A DNA stretch of 64,000 nt from Sideroxydans sp. (lineage in GTDB: Bacteria > Pseudomonadota > Gammaproteobacteria > Burkholderiales > Gallionellaceae): positions 248,001 through 312,000 of the forward strand of contig JAQTTU010000003.1 of the NCBI GenBank assembly GCA_028710605.1, written 5' to 3'. Positions 47,707-48,387 of this stretch are shown one piece after another (positions within the stretch are counted from its first letter, which is position 1; each line of letters begins with the position of its first letter). Made by a program: the position numbers and the translations under genes. The notes under the pieces were generated by a model. It saw nothing but the letters and a program-made list of their open reading frames with translations, did no database searches and was not told where the DNA came from.

Positions 47707-47793
47707 CCCATCAAAATACAGCAACAAAAAATAAAGGCGCGCATTGTAGTTGATGAAGCATGGCGTTTCATGGATAATTCGCGGCCTTCCCAA

Positions 47794-47918
47794 GCCGGGG
47801 TGATGAAACTGGTAGATGGGCCGGACTCACCATGGCTCGTTTACGAGACATGGCGGCGCAGGCTAACTTGCGCAGCAAGTTAAACCGCGAAGCGGTGGCC
47901 GTAGCCAAAATCCAGTGC
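47794..47918 (+). pseudogene. Interrupted/truncated tRNA-Leu copy (5' half + 77-nt hairpin-rich insert + 12 nt after anticodon)
   Basis: gccggggtgatgaaactggtagatgggccggactca (32/36 nt match to tRNA-Leu) | ccatggctcg...gtagcc | aaaatccagtgc. Confidence 0.75.
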
Positions 47919-47938
47919 TGCTTGGGATGTACACTCTT

Positions 47939-48025
47939 GCCGGGGTGATGGAACTGGTAGACGTGCTGGACTCAAAATCCAGTGCCTGAAAGGGCGTGGG
48001 GGTTCGATTCCCCCCCCCGGCACCA
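47939..48025 (+). tRNA. tRNA-Leu(CAA)
   Basis: GCCGGGG...CCCCGGCACCA acceptor; anticodon arm CTGGA-CTCAAAA-TCCAG; T arm GGGGGTTCGATTCCCCC. Confidence 0.93.
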
Positions 48026-48144: not shown

Positions 48145-48366
48145 ATGAAACTGGTATCCACTCTGATCGCCGCTGTATTCGCTGCTGCTTCTTTCTCCGC
48201 TGTTGCTGCTGATGCTGCCAAAGCTGCTGCTCCTGCTGCCAAGGCTGCTCCTGCCGCTGTTGCCGCTCCTGCTGCTGCCGCTGAAGCTCCTGCTGCAAAG
48301 GCTGCTCCCAAGGCCAAGCGCCACGGCAAGAAAAAGGCTGCTAAGGCTGAAGCTGCTGCCAAGTAA
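48145..48366 (+). CDS. Ala/Lys-rich small secreted protein
   Basis: MKLVSTLIAAVFAAASFSAVAADAAKAAAPAAKAAPAAVAAPAAAAEAPAAKAAPKAKRHGKKKAAKAEAAAK; signal peptide; terminator follows. Confidence 0.8.
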   Translation: MKLVSTLIAAVFAAASFSAVAADAAKAAAPAAKAAPAAVAAPAAAAEAPAAKAAPKAKRHGKKKAAKAEAAAK

Positions 48367-48387
48367 TATTGCATTACCGCAGTAACT

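Follow-up and report, generated by a model that had tools for sequence, protein, structure and literature searches.

The split tRNA-Leu locus

Upstream of the intact tRNA-Leu(CAA) gene of a Sideroxydans sp. lies the 5′ half of another tRNA-Leu, followed by a folded insert, which raises the question of what this insert is and how it came to divide a tRNA. The window examined comprises 64,000 nucleotides (contig JAQTTU010000003.1, positions 248,001 to 312,000 of the forward strand), and its features are listed in Table 1. Direct reading agrees to the base with the initial annotation, which had described the half tRNA and its 32 matches in 36 positions to the start of the intact tRNA, an insert of 77 nt (47830-47906) and a 12/12 copy of the 3′ anticodon arm. 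That the split falls in the anticodon loop is borne out by this reading and by a break within the loop in several genomes. ARAGORN and Rfam make a sole call at the locus, namely the intact tRNA. At least seven other genomes, belonging to three genera, likewise possess a half tRNA plus insert upstream of tRNA-Leu(CAA); because of this recurrence, and because the core of the insert matches a family covariance model with an E-value of ~1e-23, the arrangement is far beyond chance.

Two candidates for the insert were rejected. A tRNA intron, group I or other, is contradicted by the missing 3′ exon, 12 nt of the 3′ part following the insert, and no Rfam intron family is found at the locus even at relaxed thresholds. 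An integron attC site, prompted by CTAAC/GTTA boxes, was set aside on inspection, which found no paired R and L boxes with a spacer. Just 3′ of the tRNA (48146-48367) is encoded a small Ala/Lys/Pro-rich, secreted-looking protein with many AAPAAK-like motifs.

Table 1. Features of the tRNA-Leu locus, with a separate repeat of the same genome in the last row
Feature	Position	Strand	Evidence
Sigma-70-like promoter (TTGATG, 17-nt spacer, GATAAT) of the original tRNA-Leu gene	47750..47778	+	Read directly; element-free relatives L014, L019, L024
Original tRNA-Leu 5′ half; its 3′ end (GGACTCA) is in the anticodon loop	47794..47829	+	32/36 identity to start of intact tRNA; placed with respect to the promoter as at empty sites
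Element-specific hairpin CCATGGCTCG-TTTA-CGAGACATGG (X-loop-X′)	47830..47853	+	Read directly; L003, L008, L009 have related hairpins there
Conserved repeat core, ending in GCCAAAA	47851..47910	+	Covariance-model match, 84.5 bits; covariation
Core parts: closing stem, GNA/GNA internal loop, second stem, two GNA-loop hairpins	47851..47910	+	
AAAATCCAGTGC, short copy of the 3′ anticodon arm	47907..47918	+	12/12 match to intact tRNA
20-nt spacer before the duplicated 5′ half; its end ACACTCTT is common to relic loci (e.g. L010, L011, L012, L015)	47919..47938	+	
Intact tRNA-Leu(CAA), made up of the duplicated 5′ half and the original 3′ half	47939..48025	+	ARAGORN, Rfam; empty-site comparison
Separate TTCCGGCG-type repeat	G000:C7:33124-33190 (L191); G000:C15:269364-269428 (L192)		

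Empty, relic, and filled sites in relatives

The comparison with relatives that the initial annotation had proposed reveals empty, relic, and filled tRNA-Leu sites. In the empty ones, which include L014, L019, and L024, one intact tRNA-Leu follows straight after the promoter (..GATAATTCGC..CCTTC..); in the window the same promoter precedes the half tRNA instead. Since the original promoter precedes the half as it does the single tRNA of the empty sites, we conclude that it is the 5′ half of the original gene, whereas the intact gene consists of a duplicated 5′ half and the original 3′ half. The broken half had been called the second one, and the reverse holds; its designation as a pseudo-tRNA is correct in effect, with its relation to the intact tRNA turned around. 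The insert may be processed together with the downstream tRNA.

Filled sites are represented by L003-L009. A further set of loci (L010-L013, L015, L016, L026, L027, and L029) lacks the core but has extended leaders, some of which contain partial traces; these are read as relics, to which the tRNA-Leu copies appear to decay. At the tRNA-Leu and argF sites the presence of the core is patchy between close species, and no insertion differing between strains of one species was caught.

A half tRNA beside an intact one could also arise by ordinary tandem duplication of the gene followed by random decay. However, the insert belongs to a family present elsewhere, several genomes have their break within the loop, and an identical arrangement is seen at tRNA-Ser, so that this origin is very improbable; a simple decayed tandem tRNA is contradicted by the dispersed family.

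A dispersed repeat family

The last ~57 nt of the insert belong to a dispersed, structured repeat family, of which they form one copy; this disposes of the possibility that the insert is random single-copy sequence. A DNA search of the taxonomic family recovered the insert core from further loci in many genomes, and a targeted DNA search of ten genomes revealed one to eight copies in each, the best copies being 93-98% identical. Exact-pattern matches among named genomes are found in Gallionella, Sideroxydans, Ferriphaselus, Ferrigenium, Sulfurisoma, a Thiobacillus MAG, and a Methylophilaceae genome, all of which we take to belong to the GTDB Burkholderiales.

The covariance model was built from an alignment of 40 sequences that includes the window copy, itself first found by DNA similarity before the model existed. 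It matched 34 of 34 genomes of the genus (E 0.01) and, in the order, at least 112 of 400 genomes and at least 56 of 164 genera (E 1e-6), numbers which are lower bounds because few candidates per genome were scored. Among the 388 genomes of a class-wide sample (E 1e-7) only the genome under study was matched, which suggests that the family is restricted to the order; this sample is also a strong specificity control for the model. Further copies of the insert in its own genome had been anticipated, and four clear matches were found, the window copy and three shorter ones. One-hairpin shorter cores of 41-46 nt (L188-L190) occur in this genome: one lies at the 3′ end of dnaB, another upstream of rplU, and the third elsewhere.

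At the Rfam gathering score, copies in 20 loci gave no hit on the element. No element match was found in plasmids and the exact element pattern is absent from IMG/VR; carriage by phage or plasmid was rejected, the one match in phages being a 27-nt chance match in Bacteroides phages.

Secondary structure of the core

One branched fold is supported by compensatory changes. Its closing stem, GGC/GCC, is flanked by TTT/AAA or TTG/CAA and leads via a 3x3 GNA/GNA internal loop to a second stem; two hairpins, usually GNA-tipped, complete the fold. In alignment A1 two-sided changes are found at 8 pairs, and the observed values were reached by no shuffle. In 83 distinct copies, mostly from other families, such changes affect 16 of 22 pairs, and the covariation score is 0.317 compared with 0.095 (sd 0.006) when shuffled and at most 0.033 when slid; this alignment was fitted to the model and is thus biased towards the model fold. 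As single-stranded DNA, 47820-47918 folds more stably than 200 of 200 shuffles (z -3.1); folded as RNA, the whole stretch is moderately more stable than its shuffles (z -1.7).

The structured nature of the insert, as initially annotated, is therefore supported by covariation within the dispersed family. As to its description as a run of hairpins, covariation indicates a branched unit and no simple chain. The fourth hairpin proposed, GGC-CGTA-GCC, shows no compensatory change and up to 4 breaks in 40; the closing stem GGC...GCC with its internal loop, with which it competes, does show compensatory changes and is the better supported of the two.

Other target genes

In L132 the tRNA-Ser(GGA) gene is likewise broken at its anticodon loop, and the locus comprises a truncated AAAGCGTG together with a leader and a complete tRNA-Ser. 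In tRNA-Ser(CGA) of L182, which has the same anatomy, the break falls in the D arm. Loci at protein genes comprise, in this order, the intact gene end containing a segment X, the stop codon, a spacer, X′ (the reverse complement of X), the core, and a second copy of the gene end. The repeat adjoins an intact gene end, usually together with a second, still-coding copy, and the arm is often complementary to the target. Ten targets identified with HMMs are complete to their ends: argF, proB, metK, ftsW, nrdA, glmS, accB, acs, mraY, and dnaB. Further targets recognized by eye include serS, a NorD/CbbO-like gene, and an xerC-like gene, as well as the starts of nuoD and thiolase, where the copies lie antisense. 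Near 767-1134 of L179 (G018) a repeat copy adjoins the tmRNA gene, and a T-arm-like fragment lies upstream of this copy.

Many copies sit just after stop codons, the covariation is strong and RNA-compatible, and X′ matches X even though X is coding sequence. These properties would suit a selected RNA element, that is, a functional 3′-UTR or processing structure (e.g. a terminator or stabilizer) that evolved at gene ends, with the gene-end duplications as by-products of slippage. We consider this unlikely in view of the patchy per-site presence among close species, the position of cores inside tRNA genes and antisense at 5′ ends, and the apparent decay at tRNA-Leu.

The putative guide arm and the second gene end

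Arm and duplication statistics were obtained from 168-173 distinct copies and compared with mismatched loci or pairs. In 38% of copies, versus 0.5% of mismatched loci, the core has an inverted arm anchored to it that matches exactly over 11 nt or more. Flank duplication (score >=18) is found in 62% of 168 copies, a figure that includes tandem arrays, versus 5.6% of mismatched pairs, and the true background is below this value because some control pairs have the same target. The duplications have a mean length of 56 nt and 86% identity and mostly begin 0-13 nt after the core. Both arm X′ and flank duplication are detectable in part of the copies, not in every one.

In-use and displaced gene ends differ by 320 synonymous versus 74 nonsynonymous codons, the latter number being inflated by several misaligned pairs, and the displaced end has therefore been under coding selection for most of the divergence. 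Displaced ends that still code would be expected if, as a version of the mobile-element reading, a homing unit arrived from another species, bringing along a diverged gene end in the manner of integrative elements, and inserted at the matching site of the same gene, with no duplication on the spot. The argF gene bears on this question. A survey of the genus found most genomes empty at this site and others filled; argF genes flagged with a core have a GC3 of 0.49 compared with 0.63 for the rest (four versus 26 genes), the flag having missed at least L195 and L197, both of which carry the unit. Across five units GC3 is 0.50 in the in-use ends and 0.55 in the displaced ends, and 0.63 in element-free genes. 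At L207 the displaced end is 90-96% like relatives, whereas the in-use end is 75-83% like them, and this copy looks like an imported unit. By comparison, the two ends at L201 are 96% identical to each other, which looks like a recent local duplication. In-use argF ends are no closer between species than to native ends, which argues against import and led us to reject a single clonal argF lineage; import also leaves the acquisition of new target genes unexplained. We rate import a little short of an even chance.

Spread by target and homogenization within genomes may both occur, because the mean distance of cores is 0.205 within a target versus 0.242 within a genome, yet the copies at acs and accB of G527 have a very similar hairpin in common.

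Probable nature of the element and its mobilization

Taking as established the family, its fold, the empty and filled sites, the flank duplication, and the preservation of genes, we regard the insert as probably a copy of a small, protein-less, structured, non-autonomous mobile repeat, the insertion of which preserves gene function. A mobile palindromic unit had been among the initial suggestions, and the dispersed family and the empty sites lend it support. The structured repeat would have inserted into the native tRNA-Leu(CAA) gene at its anticodon loop and brought with it a second copy of the neighboring target segment, here the tRNA 5′ half, the outcome being one intact tRNA-Leu gene beside a fragment. 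At protein genes the same core stands between the intact end of the gene and a further copy of it. The target may be recognized by pairing through the variable arm X′ beside the core, as a putative guide, and movement would presumably occur in trans, by a putative enzyme or by host recombination. No mobilizing enzyme was found; a Y1 transposase or a reverse transcriptase as universal mobilizer was rejected, both being missing from several element-rich genomes: Y1_Tnp (PF01797) is absent from the element-rich G018, G393, G327, G177, G192, and G296, and RVT_1 from G018, G527, G393, G203, G382, G177, G192, and G329. Of these, G018 is a one-contig genome with 11 element matches and lacks both.

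Comparison with known systems

Fungal mitochondrial double-hairpin elements are two-hairpin mobile units; the element described here likewise has two hairpins, in different genomes, and we know of no flank duplication of such kind in the fungal elements. Integrative elements target conserved genes, where an intact gene remains alongside a displaced fragment; the present element does likewise, but its unit measures ~100-200 bp and, in the copies read, the distance between target copies is too short for an integrase gene. Integrative elements of this tRNA- or gene-targeting type are exemplified by the dusA islands (PMC4482086).

The bacterial MITE-like repeats RUP, Correia, ERIC, and YPAL/RU-2 are <200 bp, protein-less, folded, and dispersed, and their movement is believed to occur in trans; dyad symmetry lies within or next to the targets of YPAL, and the duplications are 3-26 bp (PMC2229807). 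The tRNA-Leu element is equally short, protein-less, folded, and dispersed; unlike these repeats, it duplicates flank segments (mean ~56 nt), leaving an intact gene end, and possesses a target-complementary arm. MITEs have terminal inverted repeats shared with an insertion sequence; the ends of the present element form a short closing stem, and an unsystematic search found no IS relative. Its flank duplications are much longer than the usual target-site duplications and may be imported. By analogy, it presumably works like a MITE-type repeat, differing by its gene-preserving flank duplication. REP/BIME sequences with RAYT are also short palindromes with several copies per genome (PMC3733652, PMC3686654), a description that fits the present element; unlike REP/RAYT it has no tagged single palindrome, and Y1_Tnp is not universal among its hosts. 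Rickettsia palindromic elements enter genes without destroying them and sit in frame inside proteins, whereas this element duplicates the gene end instead. The Rickettsia elements are palindromic and 105-146 bp in length (PMC2229807).

No description of the element was found in the open literature, most subscription journals lying outside this coverage. It would be a rather doubtful step to propose a new class of gene-preserving micro-element, in which a structured core that encodes no protein, equipped with a guide arm complementary to the target, homes into conserved housekeeping and tRNA genes via nucleic-acid pairing and supplies a replacement gene end. The family occurs in many members of the order, has no Rfam entry, and combines a strongly supported fold with an insertion anatomy that keeps housekeeping genes intact; it can mislead the annotation of gene ends and tRNAs. 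How a 60-nt folded sequence gains a target-complementary arm and a second gene-end copy is the question that it raises, and since filled, empty, and relic sites exist in close relatives, the origin of both is testable.

Tandem arrays and a separate repeat

Whole units are also found in head-to-tail arrays of near-identical units with a spacing of ~100-150 bp, at L168 (G237), L171 (G177), and L144-L147 (G527). The window's own genome contains in addition a separate dispersed repeat, TTCCGGCG..GGCCGGAATCCAGT ... CTGGATTCCGGCCTGCGCCGGAATGACGG, which flanks a variable middle; it gives weak matches to the model and seems unrelated.
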